Below are positions 5,649-61,009 of a stretch of DNA of 61,359 nucleotides, piece after piece. Numbering within the stretch: the first letter of the stretch is position 1; the number at the start of each line of letters is the position of its first letter. The notes below the pieces were generated by a model. It worked only from the letters and a program-made list of their open reading frames with translations. It did no database searches and was not told where the DNA came from. Source of the stretch: Planctomycetota bacterium (GTDB lineage Bacteria; Planctomycetota; Planctomycetia; Pirellulales; Thermoguttaceae); NCBI GenBank assembly GCA_029550925.1, contig JAKPGL010000229.1:1-61359 (forward strand), written 5' to 3'. Made by a program: the position numbers and the translations under genes.

Positions 5649-6869
5649 ATGCAGAAATGGTTGGTAGGGTTGGTGATTTTCGGCGTATGTTTCTCAGCAA
5701 TGGCCGTGTGCGCGGCGGAGTCGTCCAAACCGGATGCGGAGGCAGGTCAGCCAGAGATTAAGCCAGATACGTCCAAGCCGGCGCCGTCGGACTCCCCGCA
5801 GGCAAAACCGGCCGGGGCCATTGGACCGGATCGGCAATTGCTGCAAAAGACCGTCGATCGAGGCTTGCAGTTTCTGGCCGGCGCCCAGGCCGAGGAGGGT
5901 TCCTGGAGTGGTCAGATGGGCATGGGTCCGACGGCCCTAGGCGCCTTGGCCTTTTTGCGTCATGGCCGACCGGCGACCGATCCCACCGTCGCCAAAGCCC
6001 TCAAGTACCTGGAAGAATACGTGCAGGAAAACGGCGGCATCTATACGCCCGGTGGCCGGATCGCCACCTATGAAACCTGTATCGCCCTGCTCTGTTTCCA
6101 GCAGGCCAACACCCAGGGCCGATATAACAAGATTCTGAAGGATGCGGAGGCGTTTTTGCGCGGCACGCCCTGGGACGAAACCCGCGGCAAACAGCGTTCG
6201 GACCTTTATTACGGCGGGGCCGGGTATAGTGCGAAAAGTCGGCCGGACCTGTCGAACACGGCCTTTTTGGTCGAGGCTCTGCGCGCGGCCGGCGCTAAGC
6301 CGGACGATCCAGCTATCCAAAGGGCCCTAGTCTTTGTCAGCCGGTGCCAAAACCTGGAAAGCGAACATAATACCACGCCGTTTGCCGGCAAAATCAACGA
6401 CGGCGGTTTTTACTATACCTGTGTGCTGGACAAGGCCGACCAGGAGCGTCAAGGTCCCCAAGGCGGCCTGCGCAGCTACGGCTCGATGAGCTATGCGGGC
6501 CTGAAAAGCATGGTCTATGCCGGGCTCAGCAAAGACGATCCCCGCGTCAAGGCGGTGCTCGGCTGGGTGCGGAAATACTATAGTGTGGCGGAAAACCCCG
6601 GCATGGGCGATGCCGGCGTGTATTACTATTACCACACCTTTGCCAAGGCGATGGCTGCGGCCGGCATCGACCTGGTCGAAGACGCCCAGGGCGTCAAGCA
6701 CGATTGGCGTCGGGAACTTGTCGAGGAGCTGGCCCGCCGGCAAAAGCCCGACGGCTCCTGGGTCAATACCAATCCCCGCTGGATGGAAGGCGACGCCAAC
6801 CTCTCGACCGCCTTCGCCCTGCTGGCTCTGTCGTATTGCCAGCCGCCTTCCACCCAACCACGACCATAA
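5649..6869 (+). CDS. Secreted prenyltransferase/squalene-cyclase-repeat protein
   Basis: This 406-residue protein starts with a signal peptide (MQKWLVGLVIFGVCFSAMAV, then an ACAA-type cleavage region) and a Pro/Lys-rich linker. The rest is an alpha/alpha-toroid with cyclase-type repeats, for example FLAGAQAEEGSWSGQMGMGP at about residue 75 and RQKPDGSWVNTNPRWMEGD near the end. The fold is that of squalene cyclases and protein prenyltransferases, but an exported copy is unlikely to be a terpene cyclase. Such proteins are common in planctomycetes with unknown function. The start follows AAAAGGAG with good spacing. A DUF1559 pseudopilin follows 75 bp downstream on the same strand. Confidence 0.85.
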   Translation: MQKWLVGLVIFGVCFSAMAVCAAESSKPDAEAGQPEIKPDTSKPAPSDSPQAKPAGAIGPDRQLLQKTVDRGLQFLAGAQAEEGSWSGQMGMGPTALGALAFLRHGRPATDPTVAKALKYLEEYVQENGGIYTPGGRIATYETCIALLCFQQANTQGRYNKILKDAEAFLRGTPWDETRGKQRSDLYYGGAGYSAKSRPDLSNTAFLVEALRAAGAKPDDPAIQRALVFVSRCQNLESEHNTTPFAGKINDGGFYYTCVLDKADQERQGPQGGLRSYGSMSYAGLKSMVYAGLSKDDPRVKAVLGWVRKYYSVAENPGMGDAGVYYYYHTFAKAMAAAGIDLVEDAQGVKHDWRRELVEELARRQKPDGSWVNTNPRWMEGDANLSTAFALLALSYCQPPSTQPRP

Positions 6870-6944
6870 TCCCCCAAGGAAGACAGGAAAAGAGAGGAAA
6901 GTAGGTGTTTTTGCTAAGAGTTTGAATAGAAGGAGTAGCCCTCG

Positions 6945-7970
6945 ATGCGAAAAGTTTTCAGGAATATGAATCGTGGTTTCACCTTAGTGGAACTTTTAGT
7001 GGTGATATTGATCATTGGAATATTGGTGGCTTTATTATTACCTGCAGTGCAGGCGGCCCGCGAGGCGGCCCGACGGACTCAATGCGCCAACAACTTAAAG
7101 CAAATCGGCCTGGCCGTGCATAACTACGTAGATCGGTCCCGCGGGATGCTGCCCAACGCCGGGTGGAGCGTACCCGGAAACTATCCAAACGATTATTCCC
7201 CGCTGGCCAAGATATTGCCCTACTGCGAACAGGCCCACTTGCAGGACTTAATCGACTTCCGGATTACGTTGGGGCATCCTGGGCGAGATGATTTGCCGGT
7301 CGCCTTGCAGACAGCCGCCTCCAAAGTGGTTCCGCTTTTCTTGTGCCCTAGCGATCCAGAACCTGCAGTCCACCAACTGACTATGCCTTCTGGGGCGGCC
7401 ATTCCGGTGGCGGGAACCAATTATGCCATGAATCAAGGGAGCGGCATGGACGGCATTTTCCATCCGGCCTTTGGGGCTTCAGATGGCCTTTGCTGGGTCG
7501 ATGCTCAGGTAAAGCTGGAAAGCATCCGGGACGGAACCTCCAATACGCTTGCTTTTACCGAATCCATCCGAGGTCCAGGAGGCACGAAAGCCATCACGGA
7601 CACGGTCAATCCCCGAGTGTATCGTCTCCAGGCGCCGACCAATTCTACGGTGTTAGCGGCGGCCGATGTCGAAGACTGGGATACGGTGTTTTCGTATGGC
7701 AGTGGCTGGGACGGCAACCGACTGACCTATTGGCTTCGCGGGTGTGTACCAGGCGGGCCGGTGATGAACGGCCGATTTCCACCCAATTTTAAAATTCCTG
7801 ATCTGACCGGCGGTTCCGCCAAGGTAACAGCCGCCCGCAGTTGGCACGCCAAAGGAGTCAATGCTCTGTTCTGCGACGGTGCGGTGCATTTCATTGACGA
7901 TTCGATCAGCCTGCGCGTGTGGCGGGCCTTGTGGACCCGCGCCGGTGGCGAAGTCGAAAATGAGTGGTAA
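6945..7970 (+). CDS. DUF1559 type II pseudopilin-like protein
   Basis: This 341-residue protein has a short charged leader, then the prepilin peptidase motif [10 protein letters not shown] and a hydrophobic helix ending in [20 protein letters not shown], which is the planctomycete DUF1559 signature. The C-terminus carries the usual [14 protein letters not shown] block. Such proteins are exported and cleaved like type II pseudopilins; planctomycetes have many paralogues and their roles are poorly known. The start at 6945 follows AGAAGGAG with suitable spacing. An ABC ATPase gene begins 51 bp downstream. Confidence 0.92.
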
Positions 7971-8021: not shown

Positions 8022-8783
<762 letters not shown>

Positions 8784-8796
8784 CGCCGGGTAGGAG

Positions 8797-8941
8797 ACGT
8801 GGCGTCGTCTGTCCAGCCGGCGCGTTGTAGCGCCGCCTGTTTAGGTGGTCGCCGGCTCAGGCTAGACAGCCTAAGTAACGCCGGCTGTTAAGCCGGCAGG
8901 TAGCTCAGGCTAGACAGCCTAAGCTACGTGGCGTCGTCTGT
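8797..8941. repeat. Cluster of palindromic REP-like repeats, copy A
   Basis: Several repeats crowd between the ABC ATPase and permease genes. A 16-bp direct repeat (ACGTGGCGTCGTCTGT) occurs at 8797-8812 and 8926-8941. A 21-bp direct repeat, containing CAGGCTAGACAGCCTAAG, occurs at 8855-8875 and 8903-8923. The second copy lies in a near-perfect hairpin at 8900-8927 (GTAGCT, then AGGCT, loop AGAC, AGCCT, AGCTAC). Another hairpin, GCCGGCT-GTTA-AGCCGGC, is at 8880-8897. A related cluster follows the permease gene. Confidence 0.85.
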
Positions 8942-8990
8942 TCGACGGCGTTTCACTTATGGGGTGAGAATGTTTGCTGGAGAGATATCT

Positions 8991-11900
8991 ATGTTTCTCT
9001 GTTGGAAGTTGGCCTGGTCGTATGTTCGGCGGCATCCGTTGCGGATGGTGCTGGCTGGTTTGGCGATCGTGGCTTCGGCCGGGATGGTCGTCTGGGTGGT
9101 GAGCCGATACGACGCCCTGATGGCGCAGTTCGCCCACCAAACGCCGCAATATCTGGGCCGATACGACTTTTTCATCTCGCCGGAAAATCCGGAGGCCGGT
9201 TTCCTCCCCTCGGAACTGGTCGAACCATTGCGTCAGGACCCGGACATTGCCGAGTTGGACCTGGCGATTCAGTGGTCGGTCCGGGTATTGCCGGATCGAC
9301 CGGAAGGTTTTCCAGGCCAAGGCCCTGGCGGAGGCGGCATGGGCGGATTCGGCGGCGGAATGGGAGGTCCAGGGCCTGGCGGCGGAGGACCGGGCGGCTT
9401 TGGCGGGTTGGACGGTCCGAGTTTTGGCGGAAAGGGCGGCTTTGGAGGTGGTGGCTTCGGTGCAGCAGGGGGAAAGGGCGGCTTGGGAGGCGGTGGCTTC
9501 GGTGGGCCGGGCGGCTTGGCCGGGCCGGGCGGCCCGAGTTTTTCGAAAAAAGCTCCTGGCGGGCCGACCGGACCAGGACGCCGACCGATGTTCTTCGGCA
9601 GTCCTAAACTGATGGGTGTGCAAAGTCCAGAGCCTCCTTATCCGCTGGTGGAAGGCCAGTGGATCGACCCGGCTGATTCAAAAGCCCGCCAAACGGTGAT
9701 CACCCAGCCGTTGGCCGAGGCGATGCAGTTGAAACTGGGCGACCAGGTGCTGGTGATTTCCGGGACCAAAGAATATCGGCTCACGGTGATAGGGATCATC
9801 CAGCAGACATCCGAGGCGCCGACGTTGCAGAAACAATCGCCGACAGGTCGGCCGATGCTGAGCGGGCCGGGGCCGACGTTGGGGCCGCCACCGCTGGCCT
9901 TGTATGTGCCCAAGGTGTTGGCGGAGAAGGTAGCTCGGAAGCCCGGCCAGGTGAATCTGGTCAGTCTGAAGTTGCGGTCCGAGGCAGACCGGCAGGCGTT
10001 TCGGCGGCGTTGGCTGGAGCGGTTGGCCGCGGTGCAGCCGCCGGCGCTTCTGGTGGGGTTGGAGGAAATCCGGGCGGCAAGGGAAGAAGGCTTTTGGGCG
10101 GCCAGCGCGCGTCGGCAGGCATGGTCGGCCACGGGACTGGCCCTGTTGGCCGCCGTGTTTATCATCTTCACCACCCTGAGCATGGGGGTAACCGAGCGAG
10201 TTCGGCAATTGGCCGTCTTGCGGGCCGTCGGGCTGAGCCGAGTGCAGGTGGCCGGCATCATCGGCATGGAAAGCCTGCTTTTGGGCCTTTTGGGCTGGAT
10301 CGGCGGCCTGGCTGCCGGATGGGGAATGCTTCAGATATTGGCCTGGGCCAAACCGGAAATGTTCTCCGAGCCGGTGAGTTTGGGCGGTTGGTGCATAGGG
10401 CTTTCGGGTCTGAGTGCGTTGGGTGGGGCGATGCTGGCGGCCATTGTGCCTGCCTGGCAAGCCACCCGGACGCCGCCCGGCGAAGTGCTCTCGCCGCCCA
10501 GCGCCCGAAGGCCCCGGTGGGTTTGGCTTTTGGGGCTGGCGGCGGTCGGCCTGGTGCTGATCGGGGTAAATCCGCTGGTGGTCTTTGTGGTGCAATTGCC
10601 GGAAGAGGCCCGATACGACATCTACGCCGCCGTAGGATGTACGAGCATGGCCCTGGGCTTTTTGGCCCTGTCGCCGTTGGCCATTGTGCTGATCGAGGCG
10701 ATCGTAGGGCCGATGATGGCCTGGGCGCTTCGGCTGCAACCGTATCTGTTGCGACAGCAGCTTTCTAACCATCTGGGCCGAACCCTGGGCACCACAGCCG
10801 CCCTGAGCGTGGGGCTGGGGCTTTATGCGGCCATGATGGTCTGGGGCTACTCCATGCTGGAGCCGTTCAAGCCCGGGGATTGGACGCCGGATATGCTGGC
10901 GGCTTTCCAACTGGGCGGACTGCCGGAAACCGAAGTGGAGACGGTTCGGCGCATCCCCGGCGTGCGGGCCGACCAGTGTCTGCCGCTGGCCGTCGAACAA
11001 CCCCGATTGGCCGAGGACATTACCGGAAGCCGACTCGGCACCTCGGTAACCCGGCAGGACAATGTGATTATGGTTGGCGTGGACCCGCAGCGGGCTTTCG
11101 GCGGCCCGAATCCGGTGTTTAAGCTCCAATTTGTTCACGGCTCGGCGGAAGAGGCGATTCGGCTTTTCCGCCAGGGCCGATACTGCATCGTGCCGGACCA
11201 TTTTCTGACGGCGACTGGGCTTCGGGTGGGGGATCGGTTTTCGGTTGTGCCGCCGAGCAGACCGGATCGGACGGTGGAATACACGATTGCGGGGGCGGTT
11301 CGGCTTCCGGGCTGGCACTGGATGACGAAGTTTTCCGGTCTGCGGCGGCGGAGCGGTCGGTCGGCTGCCCTGGTCTTTGCACCCTATGAGCAGGTCCGGC
11401 AGGACTTCGAGCTGAAAGAGATCAACTTTTTCTGGCTAAATCGGGATAAACAGGTGCCGGTGGATGAGACGGGCAAGGCGCTGGCGGAGCTGGCTCAACG
11501 CTATCCCGGCCCGCCCCAGCCGGTCAACCAGCAAGGAACCTGGACGTTTGCCGCCCGGATGTACGGGCCTTCCGTGCGGATCACCTTGCCGGAGGATATT
11601 TACGATCGGCTCATCCAGCGGGCCGATGCAATGATCTGGACCATGTGCCAACTGCCGCTGGTGACGTTGGTGGTAACTTCGCTGGGGGTGATCAATACGG
11701 TGATGGCCTCGGTGCGGGCGCGTCGGTGGGAGTTGGGCGTGCTGCGCTCGGTGGGACTCAGCCGAAGCGGCTTGCTCCGGCTGATCTTGGCCGAGGGAGT
11801 GCTCATCGGTGTGGCCGCCTGCACACTGAGTCTGGCCTTCGGCGTGATGGCCGGCTGGTGCGGCGTCGGCATTTCCCAATATGTGAGTTTCTTCGGCGGG

Positions 11901-12053
11901 ATGGAAACGCCGCTGGTCGCACCATGGGCGAAAATGGCTGGCGGATTTGGATTGGCGTTGGGGTTGTGTTTTTTAGGGGCGATCGGCCCGGCCGTTTCCG
12001 CTGCCTGCCAAGAACCCCTCTCTCTTCTCCAAGAAGGTCGGGCCGCTCTGTAA
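8991..12053 (+). CDS. ABC permease with two FtsX-like domains and a glycine-rich insert
   Basis: This 1020-residue membrane protein has an N-terminal helix, a large extracytoplasmic domain, a first FtsX-type domain (LAAVFIIFTTLSMGVTERVR, then VLRAVGLSR), further helices and a second FtsX domain near the C-terminus (VINTVMASVRARRWELGVLR). It resembles MacB/LolCE-type permeases and probably works with the ATPase just upstream. Roughly 75 residues in the first extracytoplasmic domain (bases about 9316-9545) are mostly Gly with Phe, Pro and Lys, which is unusual for the family. I chose ATG 8991 because GGAGAG precedes it; an upstream start at 8928 would fall inside the repeat cluster. Confidence 0.88.
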   Translation: MFLCWKLAWSYVRRHPLRMVLAGLAIVASAGMVVWVVSRYDALMAQFAHQTPQYLGRYDFFISPENPEAGFLPSELVEPLRQDPDIAELDLAIQWSVRVLPDRPEGFPGQGPGGGGMGGFGGGMGGPGPGGGGPGGFGGLDGPSFGGKGGFGGGGFGAAGGKGGLGGGGFGGPGGLAGPGGPSFSKKAPGGPTGPGRRPMFFGSPKLMGVQSPEPPYPLVEGQWIDPADSKARQTVITQPLAEAMQLKLGDQVLVISGTKEYRLTVIGIIQQTSEAPTLQKQSPTGRPMLSGPGPTLGPPPLALYVPKVLAEKVARKPGQVNLVSLKLRSEADRQAFRRRWLERLAAVQPPALLVGLEEIRAAREEGFWAASARRQAWSATGLALLAAVFIIFTTLSMGVTERVRQLAVLRAVGLSRVQVAGIIGMESLLLGLLGWIGGLAAGWGMLQILAWAKPEMFSEPVSLGGWCIGLSGLSALGGAMLAAIVPAWQATRTPPGEVLSPPSARRPRWVWLLGLAAVGLVLIGVNPLVVFVVQLPEEARYDIYAAVGCTSMALGFLALSPLAIVLIEAIVGPMMAWALRLQPYLLRQQLSNHLGRTLGTTAALSVGLGLYAAMMVWGYSMLEPFKPGDWTPDMLAAFQLGGLPETEVETVRRIPGVRADQCLPLAVEQPRLAEDITGSRLGTSVTRQDNVIMVGVDPQRAFGGPNPVFKLQFVHGSAEEAIRLFRQGRYCIVPDHFLTATGLRVGDRFSVVPPSRPDRTVEYTIAGAVRLPGWHWMTKFSGLRRRSGRSAALVFAPYEQVRQDFELKEINFFWLNRDKQVPVDETGKALAELAQRYPGPPQPVNQQGTWTFAARMYGPSVRITLPEDIYDRLIQRADAMIWTMCQLPLVTLVVTSLGVINTVMASVRARRWELGVLRSVGLSRSGLLRLILAEGVLIGVAACTLSLAFGVMAGWCGVGISQYVSFFGGMETPLVAPWAKMAGGFGLALGLCFLGAIGPAVSAACQEPLSLLQEGRAAL

Positions 12054-12355
12054 GCCGCGCGAGTGCCTGGAATGCTTGGGAATCTTTCCGGCGATATGGC
12101 GCCGTCGCTAGAACCCATCGCCTAGGTAGCTTAGCCTGTGCAGGCTGAGATGTAGCTTAGCCTTTGCAGGCTAAGAAGGTCGCCGCCTAACAGCCGGTGG
12201 TACGACGCACAGTCGGCGGTACATCCCCATCGTCCGTCGCTCTGTTTACTTTTGCCAACCGGGTATAGACCTGGGGTTTTTTGATAGGCATAATAGCTTG
12301 CAGCGGCGTGGAATGGCGTGATTGGGAATGTGCTTTTTAAGAAAAGGATCGGACG
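12054..12355. other. Intergenic region dominated by repeat cluster B
   Basis: No gene is visible in these 302 bases. The first half holds the hairpin repeats listed at 12126-12240. The second half is AT-richer; GATAGGCATAATAG near 12290 could contain a -10 element for the oxidoreductase gene starting at 12356, but I see no good -35. Confidence 0.5.
12126..12240. repeat. Cluster of palindromic REP-like repeats, copy B
   Basis: Two tandem hairpins begin with GTAGCTTAGCCT, at 12126-12149 and 12152-12175. The second contains a perfect stem at 12156-12175 (CTTAGCCT, loop TTGC, AGGCTAAG). They match the cluster before the permease gene in outline, but the stem arm reads AGCCT/AGGCT here and AGGCT/AGCCT there, so pairing is kept although the bases are swapped. 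GCCGCCTAACAGCCGGTGG and a GGCGGTAC word follow and resemble the outer parts of cluster A. Confidence 0.8.
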
Positions 12356-13699
12356 ATGGAGAAGAAAGTTCTACTAGGACATGGCGGCGGGTTGTCGGGA
12401 GCGGTGGGGCGGGGCCGGAGTCGGCGGGAGTTTTTGAAGGCGGCTGCTGGCGGCACGACGGCGGCTTTGGCGGGGCTATCCATTGCCCGATCGGCCCACG
12501 CCCGCGGCGAACAGGTGGTCAAGATCGGCATGATCGGCGCTGGCGGCCGATGCAGCGGGGCAGCCGCCGAAAGTATGCGGGCCGGCCCGTTCGTCAAACT
12601 GGTGGCTATGTGCGATGTGTTTGAAAGCCGGGTCCGGGCCGGCCGGGATCGGCTCAAAAAGATGTTCCCCGATCAGGTCCAGGTGGATGACGACCACTGC
12701 ATGGCCGGGTTCGATGTGCAACAGAAGGTGATCGACTCGGTCGATGTGGTGCTGATTGCCTGTGCCTCGAAGTTCCATGCGATGTATGCGGAGATGGCGA
12801 TCAAGGCGGGCAAACATGTGTTTGTGGAAAAGCCGCCGGCCATCGACCCGGCCGGTTGCAAACGCTTGCAAGCTGTCTGCGAACTGGCCAAGCAAAAGGG
12901 CCTGAGTATTGTCAGCGGCCTGCAAAGCCGATTCCATCGCGGCTACCAGGAGTGCATGAAACGGATTCACGACGGGGTGATCGGTCAGATCGTGGCCGCC
13001 CAGGCGATGTTCCTGCGCGGCCCATACCAACTGGTCAAGCGAGACCCGAAGCTCACGGAAACCCAATATCAGTTCAGCAACTGGTACCATTTCTGTTGGC
13101 TTTCGGGCGACGATGTGCCGCAGTCGCTGGTACACAATATGGATCGGGTGGCCTGGGCCTTGAAAGAGGAGACGCCCACATGGTGTTTTGGTCTGGCGGG
13201 CCGATCCACCAGCTTCGGCGAAGAGTACGGCGATATGTTCGATCACCATACGGTGGTTTATGAATACGGAAGCGGCGCCCGCGTCTATGCACTGTGCCAG
13301 ACCCGTAACGGCTGCTACCACAACTCCTCCGATATCATCATGGGCACCAAAGGCGTCTGCTACCTGGGCGATTGCCGCATCACAGGCGAAACGAATTGGA
13401 AGTTTGAAGGCCCGCACAACAACCCCTACGAGGAGGAGCAGAAGGCCCTGATCGACTCGGTCTTACAAGGCAAGCCGATCAACAGCGGCTATCACATGAT
13501 CACCAGCACCCTGACGACCATCATGGGGCAGATTGCCTGCTATACGGGCAAAGCGGTGGAGTGGGCCCAGGTGGTCAAATCGAACTTTCAGTACGCCCCG
13601 CCGCCAGACCAGAGCAGTTTCGACACGCCGCCGCCGGTAAAGCCCGGCCCGGACGGCAACTACCCCCTGCCCATCCCCGGAATGACCAAAATGATTTAG
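12356..13699 (+). CDS. Tat-exported Gfo/Idh/MocA-family oxidoreductase
   Basis: This 447-residue protein has a twin-arginine-type leader (SRREFLKAAAGGTTAALAG), a Rossmann start (VKIGMIGAGGRCSGAA) and the lysine-containing segment KAGKHVFVEKPPAIDPAG typical of the family. The C-terminal half has the NWYHFCWLSGDDVPQSLVHN block also found in the gene at 14850-16181, so the two are paralogues. NAD(P)-dependent sugar or polyol oxidoreduction is expected; the substrate is unknown. Its TAG stop overlaps the stop of the convergent gene by four bases (13696-13699). Confidence 0.9.
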   Translation: MEKKVLLGHGGGLSGAVGRGRSRREFLKAAAGGTTAALAGLSIARSAHARGEQVVKIGMIGAGGRCSGAAAESMRAGPFVKLVAMCDVFESRVRAGRDRLKKMFPDQVQVDDDHCMAGFDVQQKVIDSVDVVLIACASKFHAMYAEMAIKAGKHVFVEKPPAIDPAGCKRLQAVCELAKQKGLSIVSGLQSRFHRGYQECMKRIHDGVIGQIVAAQAMFLRGPYQLVKRDPKLTETQYQFSNWYHFCWLSGDDVPQSLVHNMDRVAWALKEETPTWCFGLAGRSTSFGEEYGDMFDHHTVVYEYGSGARVYALCQTRNGCYHNSSDIIMGTKGVCYLGDCRITGETNWKFEGPHNNPYEEEQKALIDSVLQGKPINSGYHMITSTLTTIMGQIACYTGKAVEWAQVVKSNFQYAPPPDQSSFDTPPPVKPGPDGNYPLPIPGMTKMI

Positions 13700-16328: not shown

Positions 16329-18065
16329 TTACATCTTGTTGGCCTGGGCTTCTCGATATTCCTTGACCACTTCCGGTTCGGGGTCGTATTTCTGGGCTTC
16401 TTCTGGGGTGGGCAGTTTCAAGGGACGAATCACCCGGAAGCCGACAAAATTGGCGTCGGTCAAGTACCAGATGCTTTGCGGAATCTGCGGGTCCTGCATC
16501 TTCCAGTCTTTGTGCGAGGCGGTGCGGGCCGCACTGCGAAGCCGGTCGGCGTCGTCGTTCCACGATCCCCCGCGGACCACCCGCCCCCATTCCTGCTTCG
16601 GATCCGGCGGGTTCCACGGACGCACCGGTTTCTTGCCCACTAGGGTCTTGTAAAAGTCCGGATCATAGCGATCCAGGACCCACTCGGCCACGTTGCCGTG
16701 CATGTCGTACAGGCCCCAGGGGTTGGGTTTCTTCTTGCCGACTTTCTGATACTTGTCGTCGCTGTTGTCGGCGTACCAGGCATATTCGCCCAGCTTCTCC
16801 GGATCGTCGCCGAAGCTGTAGGCGCTGGTTGTGCCGGCCCGGCAGGCATATTCCCATTCGGCCTCGGTGGGCAGACGATAATACCGGCCCGTTTTGGCCG
16901 ACAGCCACTTGCAGTACATCTTGGCCGCTAGTTGCGTCATGCACACGGCCGGATACCCTTCCTTGCCCATGCCGAACGTCATATCCGTATAGGGTTTGGT
17001 GGGAATGGTAATGGCGTCGGCAATACGGTCCTGTTCCGTGGATTCGATCTTTTTGATCTTGCGACGCTGTTTGTCCAGACCCATCGCCCACAACTCGTAT
17101 TCATCCCAAGTTACCTCGCACTTGCCCATCCAGAACGGCTCCACCTGGACTTCCACCTGGGGGCCTTCGTCCGGTTTACGATTCTTTTCATTCTCTGGGC
17201 TTCCCATTTTGAATGTGCCGCCCCGGATCGGTATCATCTCAAACTTCACGTCCGTACCGGGGATGATCTCCGTATAGGGTTTCATCTCGGCTTCTGTGGC
17301 GGCTTCGGATTCAGGGATGCGGATGGTCGGCTTGGGCAACCAGACCACGGCCGGCACATCGGTCGGGTCCCGACCGTCGGGCAATCGAAACGCCTGCTCC
17401 CCCGCGGCAGGCTTGGGTTGTTGGGGGGTTGACGCCGGTTCGGCCGGTTTTTCTTGGGCTGTTTTTTCCGCGGGTTTTTCGGCGGGCTTTTCCTCCGCGG
17501 GTTTCTCTGTAGGCTTTGGTTCAGCGGGCTTTTCCGCTGGTTTTTCCTCGGTCATTTTTTCGGCAGGTTTTTCGGCGGGCTTTTCTTCCGGCTTTTCCGC
17601 AGCAGGCTTTTCCGCTGGTTTTTCTTCCGCTGGTTTCTCTGTAGGCTTTGGTTCAGCGGGCTTTTCCGCTGGTTTTTCTTCCGGCGGTTTTGGTTCAGCG
17701 GGTTTTTCTTGCGGCATCTTTTCCGCGGGTTTTTCGGCGGGTTTTTCCTCCGCTGGTTTCTCTGTAGGCTTTGGTTCAGCGGGCTTTTCCGCTGGTTTTT
17801 CCTCGGTCATTTTTTCGGCAGGTTTTTCGGCTGGTTTTTCTTCCGGCGGCGTCAGCTCCGGAAGTTTTACCGCTGGCGGTGTCGGCTCTGAGGGTTGAGG
17901 TTTTGTCGGCTCGCTAGTCGGCTGTTCCACCTTGGCCGGCGGTTTAACAGGCGGCTTTTCTTTCGGGCCGCAACCAACCATCAGCCCCGCTATCAACCCA
18001 CAAACCATGAGACCTACACACCATCCCAACCCATGTCGGCTGACAGGTACCACGCGATGCATCAT
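16329..18065 (-). CDS. Lipoprotein with Pro/Glu/Lys stalk and SUMF1/FGE-like domain
   Basis: This 578-residue protein begins with a lipoprotein signal (LIAGLMVGC, lipobox Cys at about residue 32), which suggests a membrane anchor. Roughly residues 45-220 are a low-complexity stalk of EKPAEKPAE-type units. The rest is a sulfatase-modifying-factor fold: [49 protein letters not shown] and [20 protein letters not shown]. True formylglycine-generating enzymes have a Cys pair in the C-terminal region, in a motif like LCHxSYC; here the matching stretch has none, so a non-catalytic or carbohydrate-binding role is likelier. GGGAG lies five bases before the ATG. Confidence 0.88.
17501..17801. repeat. 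Three exact 46-bp direct repeats inside the lipoprotein stalk
   Basis: A 46-bp unit beginning GTTTCTCTGTAGGCTTTGG and ending GCTGGTTTTTC is identical at 17501-17546, 17633-17678 and 17756-17801. Copies 1 and 3 also share about 30 bp on one side. They encode repeated Glu-Lys-Pro-Ala stalk units on the minus strand. The exact DNA identity points to recent unequal recombination or slippage rather than protein-level selection alone. Confidence 0.85.
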
Positions 18066-18806: not shown

Positions 18807-19643
18807 ATGAGGATTAAATCATCCCAATTCGGGGGGAAACGGGAAGGATTCAGGACTAATCCGGGGCCAGATGCCAGTCCGGGCGTTTTCCTTTGCTCGG
18901 TCCACCGGGCCGACTCGAACAAGTGGATAAAAATAAAAAACAGTCTAACAGACTATGTTACGAACCGGGTTCCTGGTAATCGGCAAAGCCCAAAAGGGCA
19001 TAAAATACTTTCCTTCGCTTTTCTGTGGGGGGGAGTGCTGTTGGCGGGGATGTCTGTTGGGTGCGCCTCGTGGACGCATACGGATCGAGGGGTGTTGACG
19101 GGCGGGCTGTTGGGCGCAGGCAGTGGGGCCCTTATCGGCAGTTCCACAGGCCATGCCGGAGCAGGTGCGGTCCTAGGGGCCGGGCTGGGGACTTTGGCAG
19201 GGGCCTTGGTGGGATCGGAGCTGGATGAGGTGGAGGCCAAGAATCGGGCCATGATCGCCCAGCAATTAGGTCGGCCTGTTGGCCCGGGCGCAGTCTCGAT
19301 GGAAGATGTGGTCGCCATGACCCAAGCCGGGGTAGCCGAAGAATTGATCGTCAACCACATCCGGGCCAATGGGGTCCAGCGTCCGCTAACGGCCAACGAC
19401 ATCATCTTGCTTCAGCAGCAGGGGGTGAGCACTCGGGCGATTGCCGCCATGCAGGAGGCAGGGCAAGCTCGGCCCCCAGCGCAAGCGGTCCAAGTGGTTC
19501 CCGCAGCGCCGCCGGGCGCGGTGCCGGTGATTGTGGAGGAATACCATTACGGTCCCTGGGGGCCGCCCCATTGGTGGTGGCATTATCGCCATCGTCCGCC
19601 GCCCCGGGGAGGGGTCAGTTGGGGGATCGCCGTCGGGAACTAA
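18807..19643 (+). CDS. Glycine-zipper lipoprotein
   Basis: The protein has a hydrophobic segment and lipobox (WGGVLLAGMSVGC), then a glycine-zipper helix pair (GGLLGAGSGALIGSSTGHAG, then GAVLGAGLGTLAGALVG) as in SlyB-type and related envelope proteins, and a Pro/His/Trp-rich tail. The ATG at 18807 follows CAGGAG and is the only in-frame start with a good binding site, but it puts about 75 residues before the lipobox, which is unusual. A later non-ATG start may be the real one. A TTGACC element at about 18751 could belong to a promoter. Confidence 0.7.
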   Translation: MRIKSSQFGGKREGFRTNPGPDASPGVFLCSVHRADSNKWIKIKNSLTDYVTNRVPGNRQSPKGHKILSFAFLWGGVLLAGMSVGCASWTHTDRGVLTGGLLGAGSGALIGSSTGHAGAGAVLGAGLGTLAGALVGSELDEVEAKNRAMIAQQLGRPVGPGAVSMEDVVAMTQAGVAEELIVNHIRANGVQRPLTANDIILLQQQGVSTRAIAAMQEAGQARPPAQAVQVVPAAPPGAVPVIVEEYHYGPWGPPHWWWHYRHRPPPRGGVSWGIAVGN

Positions 19644-23774: not shown

Positions 23775-24632
23775 CGTGCGCCTCCCTAAGCAAACTTTTT
23801 GAAGAAACCTGGAAAAGTTCCACTGATTGGAGGGGGGAAAACTCCTCTGCCTGTTATTTCCCTCCATGCATCGTGCAACACCCATCGGAACAAAGGATGT
23901 TACCACCCAAGAATCCCAAAATCAGGGTTTTTGCGTCAGACAACCTCTCTGTGGGGGCTCTGGCGGTGGAAATTGTCTTCTCCCTTCTCCAAAGGGCCGA
24001 AGTCTCTTGATCTGGGACCACCTCTCCAAGCCGCCTTTGTAGGGAACGCCGTCTGTCCGACACAGTAATTGCAACCCTCTCTATCAGATGGGAACTAACC
24101 CCGTCTGACAGACCGGGTTACAAAAAATCTCCCCCTTTTTCTGTTGATCTGGAATGTTGACCGGCCCAGTGGGAGAGAGTTGAAATGTGTTCACGTATTC
24201 CTTTCTAACATACCCGCATTTTGTTATTAGGTTAGGGTATCAGATTTTCTAAAATTTGCAATAATAGGGGACGTGGAAAAAAGAGGCAAAATGTTAGGGT
24301 TGCATAAATTGGGGGAACGGCAAGCTCCAGGAACCCAGACGGAATATATCCCCTTACATATCTAAATGAAATCCCCCCCAATCGGGCAAAATTAAGAAAC
24401 CCCCCTTTATGGTAAAATGCTTCTACGGCTCAAGATGGCCGTCCGGCAAAAAGCCCCAGACGATTAAGGCAACCCCCCGAACCTCCCGATGGAGAATCTT
24501 CTGTTGTAACACTTCCAGGGGGCCTTACCCTCTCCAGCAGTTTCCCTACCCCTAGGAAACCACGCCAAACCGGTAAAAATGAATGCATCCTCTTTTGTTC
24601 CGACTCTTCCAAAAACCTTCAGGAGACAGGCT
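23775..24632. other. Long gene-free region, AT-richer
   Basis: These 858 bases separate divergent genes (BON protein and TIGR03790 protein) and hold no convincing coding sequence. One good hairpin lies at 24097-24119 (AACCC-C-GTCTG, centre A, CAGAC-C-GGGTT, one mismatch) and is followed by A-rich sequence. TAAAAT at about 24411 may be a -10 element for the downstream gene, without a clear -35. A small RNA is possible but not shown. Confidence 0.45.
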
Positions 24633-54213: not shown

Positions 54214-54318
54214 CTCGCCCTAGCGGGCGAGGCGCTGGATTCCCGCTAGAGCGGGAATGACGACAGGGGCCGCGGGAATGACAACAGGGACCGCCGCAAT
54301 GACAAATAGGGGTCTCGT
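54214..54318. repeat. Hairpins and tandem GGAATGAC repeats
   Basis: A hairpin CTCGCCC-TAGC-GGGCGAG lies at 54214-54231 and a near-perfect palindrome ATTCCCGCT-AG-AGCGGGAAT at 54239-54258. It runs into three tandem copies of about 21 bp that begin AATGACGACAGGG, AATGACAACAGGG and AATGACAAATAGGG. This GGAATGAC type of dispersed repeat is seen in many bacteria. It lies between the convergent chain-length and glycosyltransferase genes. Confidence 0.75.
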
Positions 54319-60615: not shown

Positions 60616-60662
60616 TCGTTTTAGATAGACGTGAATCAGCCGATTTTGGCTCTTTGGTAAGT

Positions 60663-60857
60663 TGCGTTGGTGGTCGGTCGTCCGGAGCTTGGGCGGCCGA
60701 CAAACAGGGAACTCCGGTGCAAATCCGGGACGGCCCCGCCGCTGTGAGCGGGCCTTAGAAGAAGCGGCCCAGTCTTGGAATCGGCCATTGTCGCTATGCT
60801 TGCGATGAGAAGGCCGGGCTGCTCCATCGCCCGCAAGTCAGAAGACCTACCAACGCA
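60663..60857 (+). ncRNA. Cobalamin (B12) riboswitch
   Basis: The closing helix pairs TGCGTTGGT (60663-60671) with ACCAACGCA (60849-60857). Inside are conserved cobalamin-riboswitch blocks: GGTGCAAATCC at 60716-60726, followed by GGGACGGCCCCGCCGCTGTGA, GCCATTG at 60784-60790 with a following GAGAAGGC, and the B12 box AGTCAGAAGACCTACC at 60836-60851. The riboswitch should lower downstream expression when cobalamin is plentiful. The only gene downstream in the window is a pseudopilin, about 150 bases away. Confidence 0.92.
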
Positions 60858-61009
60858 CCTGCCGTGGACCGCTGCGAGGGTCAGCCGACCACGGTCGCCA
60901 AAAGTTTTCTTAACGCCCTGAGAACGGCGCGTGCTTGAGGTGTTTTGTGTTTGCCTCGGCGGCGCTTACCGTGTGCGCTTGAAAACCGTCCCAAGGAAAG
61001 CGTGTTCCT

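Follow-up and report, generated by a model that had tools for sequence, protein, structure and literature searches.

The window studied here is a contig of 61,359 nucleotides (JAKPGL010000229.1, our C86) from the 4.9 Mb draft genome of a planctomycete (GCA_029550925.1; 233 contigs, 97.5% complete). It carries an ABC (ATP-binding cassette) permease gene, so named in an initial annotation made from the DNA letters alone, and both gaps flanking this gene (8784-8990 and 12054-12355) contain clusters of short hairpins. We followed these hairpins, which are of two types, A and B, through the genome of the window (G000) and through two congeneric draft genomes (G465 and G469). A covariance model, R1, resolved the upstream cluster (cluster 1, 8798-8950) into six units and the downstream cluster (cluster 2, 12125-12204) into three. 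Genes and units are listed below with the model score and, for weaker matches, the expectation value (E).

8022..8783, plus strand: ABC-transporter ATPase gene upstream of cluster 1 (Walker and signature motifs, by eye)
8798..8822, plus strand: B-type hairpin unit (22.4 bits)
8826..8850, plus strand: B-type hairpin unit, containing the GCCGCCT arm described in the initial annotation (26.1 bits)
8856..8880, minus strand: A-type hairpin unit, apex GGCT/AGCC (32.4 bits)
8874..8898, plus strand: B-type hairpin unit, apex GGCT/AGCC (29.4 bits)
8904..8928, minus strand: A-type hairpin unit, apex GGCT/AGCC (39.9 bits)
8927..8950, plus strand: degenerate B-type unit adjoining the preceding A unit (14 bits, E 0.22)
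8991..12053, plus strand: ABC permease gene between the clusters
12125..12149, plus strand: A-type hairpin unit, apex GCCT/AGGC, the flipped pair (28 bits)
12151..12175, plus strand: A-type hairpin unit, apex GCCT/AGGC (17.5 bits, E 0.026)
12181..12204, minus strand: B-type hairpin unit (21.8 bits)
after 12204, to about 12228: further degenerate B-like hairpin, seen by eye and not among the matches at E 1
12259-12274: separate terminator-like site in the gap downstream of the permease
12356..13699, plus strand: Gfo/Idh/MocA-type oxidoreductase gene downstream of cluster 2 (named by eye)
18939..18962, minus strand: solitary unit, apex GTCT/AGAC as in the sister species, read as an old relic (21.1 bits)
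24099..24122, minus strand: solitary degenerate unit, apex GTCT/AGAC, a probable relic (16 bits, E 0.065)

The hairpin clusters reported on both sides of the permease are real. Folding of 8784-8960 surpassed all 200 shuffles (z -5.3 as DNA and -4.0 as RNA), as did that of 12090-12260 (z -3.1 as RNA). Allowing up to 3 mismatches, GTAGCTTAGSCTNNNCAGSCT matched the window five times, every time within the two clusters, against 0.11 matches expected. Positions 8926-8941 are an exact repeat of 8797-8812, and the two arrays have opposite polarity to each other. The inner stems had been given as AGGCT/AGCCT in one cluster and AGCCT/AGGCT in the other; pairing is indeed kept, but a single pair is flipped from G-C to C-G and not the whole stem. 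The GCCGCCT "outer motif" is present and turned out to be an arm of the second hairpin type (B), which alternates with the GTAGCT type (A). The GTAGCT-led design applies to some units, others opening with GTAACG, GTAGCG or GTTACT. When the window was scanned with Rfam at the gathering score neither cluster was matched; the sole match was a cobalamin riboswitch at 60651-60868 (97.5 bits).

Three search patterns gave 66, 127 and 182 matches in G000, the last with up to 1 mismatch, and none in the reversed control. We fetched 60 stretches round these matches, which together with the window made 61 stretches of 850,777 bases and covered 63/66, 116/127 and 153/182 of the pattern matches (84-95%). 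The patterns used for picking them were partly fixed at the apex. Counts for the own genome refer to these stretches. A tight scan returned 463 hits, compared with 26 in the reversed and 9-11 in Markov sequence; it was used in place of a looser scan (505 hits, against 196 and 90-110). Merging of A hairpins seen from both strands reduced the 463 hits to 423 hairpins, 392 of them with a GT loop; 13 units were left untyped. Only 2 of these 392 hairpins fell within genes predicted by a codon-usage script, as compared with 74.7% of random points. The genome-wide copies that the initial annotation proposed to look for thus number several hundred and are strongly confined to intergenic DNA.

The hairpins formed 96 clusters; 20 consisted of a single unit and the other 76 of at least two. 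Arrays were about equally dense in divergent (0.46 per kb), convergent (0.55) and tandem gaps (0.52). With respect to gene ends, arrays in tandem gaps were nearer to the upstream stop (median distance 46) than to the next start (162.5), but divergent gaps were not avoided. The arrays showed no clear bias in orientation relative to genes (26 same, 14 opposite), and the genes adjoining them included the DUF1559 and Gfo/Idh families, which are associated with planctomycetes. In addition, contigs C16 and C17 of G000 were identical over their first 141 bases and diverged within a hairpin array, reflecting strain variation, a rearrangement or an assembly branch.

Each unit is about 25 nucleotides long. 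A foot NGTARC is followed by a type-specific lower stem and then by one or two apical pairs that can be exchanged; CT/AG closes the stem, and the loop opens with GT. The consensus of type A is CGTARC-TTAGGCT-GTCC-AGCCTGAG and that of type B, on the other strand, CGTAAC-GCCGGCT-GTT-AGCCGGCG. The lower stem reads TTA...TGA in type A and GYC...GRC in type B, and in type A a T-G is kept at pair 3 in 180 of 192 units. When 70 units were aligned, gaps were confined to the loop. A and B are paralogous hairpins on opposite strands, arranged in arrays of fixed polarity: neighbouring A and B units lay on opposite strands in 206/206 pairs, the inverse orientation known from bacterial interspersed mosaic elements (BIMEs), neighbouring like units lay on the same strand in 89/90, and a single polarity was found in 75 of the 76 arrays of two or more units. 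The head-to-head junction GTTACGTARC is common to both units. Arrays sharing a contig had the same polarity in 29 pairs and opposite polarity in 23, so that a replication-strand rule was ruled out and polarity is a property of the array.

Covariation was analysed on 426 units picked by sequence alone, of which 25 were dropped and the others typed as 192 A and 209 B. Stem covariation exceeded the shuffles at the apex pairs only. Watson-Crick pairs were found at A pair 6 in 173/192 units (shuffle mean 98), at B pair 5 in 199/209 (shuffle mean 116) and at B pair 6 in 184/209 (shuffle mean 118), where all four Watson-Crick pairs occur. The remaining pairs stayed near shuffle level, B pair 1 just touching the shuffle maximum. 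With distinct rows only, B pairs 5 and 6 were still above every shuffle. The covariation score was 0.505, against 0.162 after shuffling and at most 0.070 after sliding, on units selected partly by pairing, which favours structure. The flipped pair of the initial annotation is therefore one case of a wider rule, in which foot and lower stem are fixed and the apex is free but paired. That combination of no covariation and random positions which would have spoken against the annotated reading did not occur. Selection for structure is, nevertheless, not the sole option, since sub-family copying and palindrome-templated repair also keep the arms paired.

Fixed-apex pattern searches matched 1 of 392 genomes of the phylum and gave 1-2 near-matches in 18 of 60 other genomes of the family, against 0-5 in the reversed control. 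Four near-matches in relatives were inspected and read as coding sequence; exact-pattern matches in other organisms, found in 17 stretches that mostly held a single match, were regarded as chance occurrences, and viral contigs scanned for the hairpin pattern gave no match. The species-specific origin suggested by these fixed-apex patterns was overturned by covariance-model matches in both congeners. At E 0.01 the model matched at least 157 times in G000, at least 41 times in G465 and at least 5 times in G469; these counts are lower bounds, as up to 150 candidates were scored per genome. The sister copies show the same two types and the same polarity rule, with A-B neighbours opposite in 20/20 and like neighbours on the same strand in 14/14 pairs.

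The apex differs between the species. The comparison was limited to units with 6 or more of the 8 pairs intact, which kept 393 of the 426 own units; 6, 3 and 2 rows were dropped, 4 of those 6 being GT..AC, and locus L166 of G469, read as coding, was excluded. In G465 the apex was GT..AC (GTCT/AGAC) in 22/31 A and 24/35 B units, in G469 in 4/5 A and 4/7 B units, and GG..CC was found in none of either genome. In G000 the 180 A units comprised 103 GG..CC, 55 GC..GC and 2 GT..AC, and the 207 B units 89 GG..CC, 47 CG..CG and 12 GT..AC. A pattern left open at the apex found 58 GG, 22 GC and 0 GT among A units of the own stretches. The own GT copies had the most mismatches in foot and lower stem among subtypes with more than one copy (mean 1.43-1.67, versus 0.06-0.60 in subtypes of at least 10 copies). 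The three genomes are about equidistant, with 73-82% identity round two shared arrays, and a shift in composition behind the apex change was not supported (GC content 0.581, 0.571 and 0.562 in the compared stretches). Because two sisters carry GTCT and the own GTCT relics are decayed, we infer that GTCT is the older apex state.

Sister arrays were placed on the own stretches via matches of their flanks. Where both flanks matched, 7 of 9 sister clusters faced an own array, in 6 own gaps (one met from both sisters), and polarity was the same in 7/7. A random gap point falls in an array-bearing gap with a probability of 0.269; treating the nine comparisons as independent, this corresponds to P 0.002. 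With weaker flanks, 12 comparisons in 10 hand-chosen own gaps all showed the same polarity by unit majority; in four of these the sister contributes just one unit, and one array includes a discordant unit. The family is thus older than the species: the congeners share its architecture and some array positions with their polarity, and have mostly another apical pair. Given shared position, same polarity and a different apex, some arrays appear to have been inherited and altered in place, and most appear to have turned over.

We consider it likely that the hairpins are an intergenic family similar to repetitive extragenic palindromes (REPs) and BIMEs, which is processed by an enzyme and homogenised within each species; the REP-like design proposed at the outset was upheld. 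Such an enzyme would process the hairpins as single strands and would read foot, lower stem and loop, the apex needing only to be paired. This is the behaviour reported for the E. coli transposase TnpA_REP, which continues to bind and cut its substrate after replacement of the upper stem by its complement, the GTAG, the bulge and positions of the lower stem being those that matter (PMC8266576). Copies would then spread and become uniform either by inserting into arrays already present or by converting them. In the own lineage copies with new apices are found at shared positions (the six two-sided gaps and four weaker-flank ones) and at many other places. At the shared positions, GTCT copies were presumably replaced in place, as also the decayed GTCT relics suggest, rather than by independent arrival or survival from mixed ancestral arrays; differential survival from such arrays is a conceivable alternative.

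Several observations weigh against this interpretation. We found no credible gene for a Y1 transposase or REP-associated tyrosine transposase (RAYT) in the three drafts of the genus. Two G465 clusters with two-sided flanks faced an empty gap, and for 35 of 44 sister clusters the fetched stretches contained no ortholog matched on both sides; since most of the own pattern matches fall within these stretches, the majority of sister positions are probably not shared. Divergent gaps were as dense in arrays as the others, unlike in published REPs. No 40-mer occurred in more than 4 places of the sequence scanned, so there was no sign of very recent copying. On distinct rows, A pair 6 (22/33) was matched by the best of 500 shuffles. 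In the analysis that gave the covariation score of 0.505, neither the count of pairs altered in both arms (4) nor that of additional pair types (12) went beyond the shuffles (344 and 48 of 500). The foot tetranucleotide of the 393 own units was GTAA in 247, GTAG in 107, GTAC in 21 and another in 18. Finally, the TnpA_REPs of S. maltophilia and Marinomonas are described in PMC8266576 as stricter, with loop or stem letters that matter.

The RAYT/TnpA_REP gene anticipated by the initial annotation did not turn up as a credible candidate in any of the three drafts. Pfam PF01797 was found in 0/3 genomes of the genus, compared with 6/11 in the family and 70/97 in the order, detection of class 3 TnpA-Y1 by this search not having been checked; it also matched 5/14 control genomes. 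Two models (A1 and A2), derived from Y1 proteins of the family and the order, gave no match in G000 or G465 at E 10. In G469 they gave only two, one at E 0.635 and one at E 0.009; the second of these lies in a reading frame that by eye looks like a coiled coil. A scan for HUH-like motifs found none in the fetched own stretches, the same scan recovering 26/32 control loci, and among 102 array-flanking proteins no transposase was present in the 25 commonest of 188 Pfam families. Of the contig ends examined, 14/48 stop within 250 bases of a unit, so that a small gene lying between arrays could have dropped out of the draft; missing REPtrons (RAYT genes flanked by their own hairpins) are reported elsewhere (PMC3733652). 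The simplest guess is that the drafts lack the RAYT gene, or that the genus lost it once the last wave was over. Among 12 Y1 loci of the same taxonomic family, hairpins were found on both sides in 4 (L150, L153, L156 and L158) and on one side in 1; the motif search located no gene in 5 of the 12. In the four loci the Y1-transposase genes lie between hairpins, several with stems of the CCCAGGG type.

A possible but clearly less probable explanation dispenses with a dedicated transposase: old arrays grew by local tandem duplication and were homogenised by ordinary recombination or gene conversion, a question that Higgins et al. (1988) reportedly raised for the REPs of E. coli. The lack of a credible Y1 gene in the drafts is in line with this, as are the exact 52-bp period in 4 copies on contig C16, the retained polarity at shared positions where the apex differs, and the sharing of an apex within arrays above expectation (A 0.66 vs 0.51, B 0.44 vs 0.32). 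On the other hand, the 35 sister clusters without a two-sided counterpart imply that many positions are new or were lost, and a hairpin of 25-50 bp is short for ordinary homologous recombination.

Covariation would also arise by mutation alone, no selection for pairing being needed, if one arm of a palindrome was rewritten from the other during templated repair. The position of the changes at the apex beside a short loop would suit this mechanism, and just 14/192 units had GG or CC as a mismatch at A pair 6. We nonetheless find this account doubtful, as it does not explain why A and B have the apex GG..CC in common here and GT..AC in the sisters, and the lower pairs scarcely vary.

It is likewise a speculative and rather improbable proposition that, in a genus lacking any Y1/RAYT transposase, several hundred hairpins of two kinds jointly switched their apical pair (T-A to G-C, among other changes), and that at inherited positions the switch took place in situ and left the polarity unaltered. 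If true, this would mean an unrecognised hairpin-converting machinery, independent of the known REP transposases.

A function at the RNA level, as terminators or stabilisers of mRNA at gene ends, is unlikely, and we give it very little weight. The arrays in tandem gaps do lie closer to the upstream stop, but the densities are alike in the three kinds of gap, orientation towards genes is mixed and neither cluster in the window contains a terminator-like site (stem-loop with T run); moreover, as A and B lie on opposite strands, the T-G would become G-U in the transcript of one type and C-A in that of the other. Selected binding sites of a chromosome-structuring protein or of gyrase are just as improbable: they would fit the intergenic location, the conserved foot and lower stem and the sharing of some positions with congeners, but leave the apex difference, the many unshared positions and the few copies in G469 unexplained.

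The permease had been described as exactly bracketed by the clusters. Both of its flanking gaps do hold arrays, but arrays are equally dense in all gap types and the bracketing is not conserved in G469, where an ortholog is present (83% over residues 110-1020 and 74% over residues 1-196). A relaxed scan of the same two gaps in G469 found no A/B-family unit, so that the window's two arrays have no counterpart there and a conserved role at the permease was rejected for this genome. We concluded that the bracketing is incidental. The G469 gaps (L146:2740-3430 and 6655-7120) hold a second hairpin family instead, and the upstream one also carries a GGACAACC...GGTTGTCC repeat. The best permease match in G465 covers about 70 residues (78%) at G465:C49:69764-69964, beside a GTCATTCC repeat, and is perhaps a remnant of the gene. 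The second hairpin family, GTCATTCCYGCGNNNGCRGGAATCC, has 54, 41 and 53 copies in G000, G465 and G469 and 0 in the reversed control, with one stem pair being C-G or T-A; a related palindrome is located at 54238-54258 of the window. The window also contains a long imperfect repeat (17437-17945) coding for a Pro-Ala-Glu-Lys-rich segment within an open reading frame at 16329-18065 on the minus strand.

How REPs stay alike throughout a genome is a long-standing question, and copying by RAYTs and gene conversion are two of its answers. The present family allows the same arrays to be compared between congeners, since position and polarity agree at several loci and the tips differ by species, so that the homogenisation of REPs can be tested with no need to guess at ancestral sequences. 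Should the lack of a RAYT prove real, homogenisation would not require one. Compensatory changes in REPs and in REPINs (inverted REP pairs) are already known (PMC3733652; PMC3116915), and titles and abstract openings on planctomycete REPs and palindromes, RAYT loss and REP gene conversion included none describing this family or switch.

We compared the A/B family with known systems. Class 3 TnpA-Y1 of Planctomycetes and Acidobacteria resembles it in its planctomycete hosts and high-copy hairpins, but the foot is reported as CnGA instead of GTAR (PMC6006769). The REPINs of Pseudomonas fluorescens likewise consist of inverted hairpin pairs, and compensatory changes between their REPs have been described (PMC3116915); in the A/B family, however, no RAYT was found, the arrays are not units of two REPs and the junction GTTACGTARC is common to both units. 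With the BIMEs of E. coli, in which the REPs y and z stand in opposite orientation and TnpA_REP acts, the family has in common its tandem intergenic arrays, a fixed foot and lower stem and an exchangeable upper stem (PMC8266576). It differs from them in a foot that is GTAA more often than GTAG, in the lack of a detected TnpA_REP, in not avoiding divergent gaps and in having no two-base bulge, type A carrying a T-G at pair 3 instead. A RAYT gene flanked by its own hairpins, the defining arrangement of a REPtron, was not found in the three drafts. The family also resembles in form the GTAG REP super-family of Di Nocera et al. (2013), whose 24 families occur in Planctomycetes as well. Size, hairpin, inverted dimers and heterodimers agree, the units are intergenic palindromes of 20-40 nt in high copy number, and sub-families with alternative complementary stem residues occur in both. 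However, the super-family has GTAG (or GT[AG]G) at the 5' foot and its degenerate tags keep the final G, but GTAG is present in only 107/393 A/B units, and the placement differs from the mainly tandem and convergent gaps of that super-family. Because the GTAG tag and the presence of a RAYT fail in the tests made here, as does the usual placement at gene ends, we do not file the A/B family as a GTAG REP, yet it works like one.

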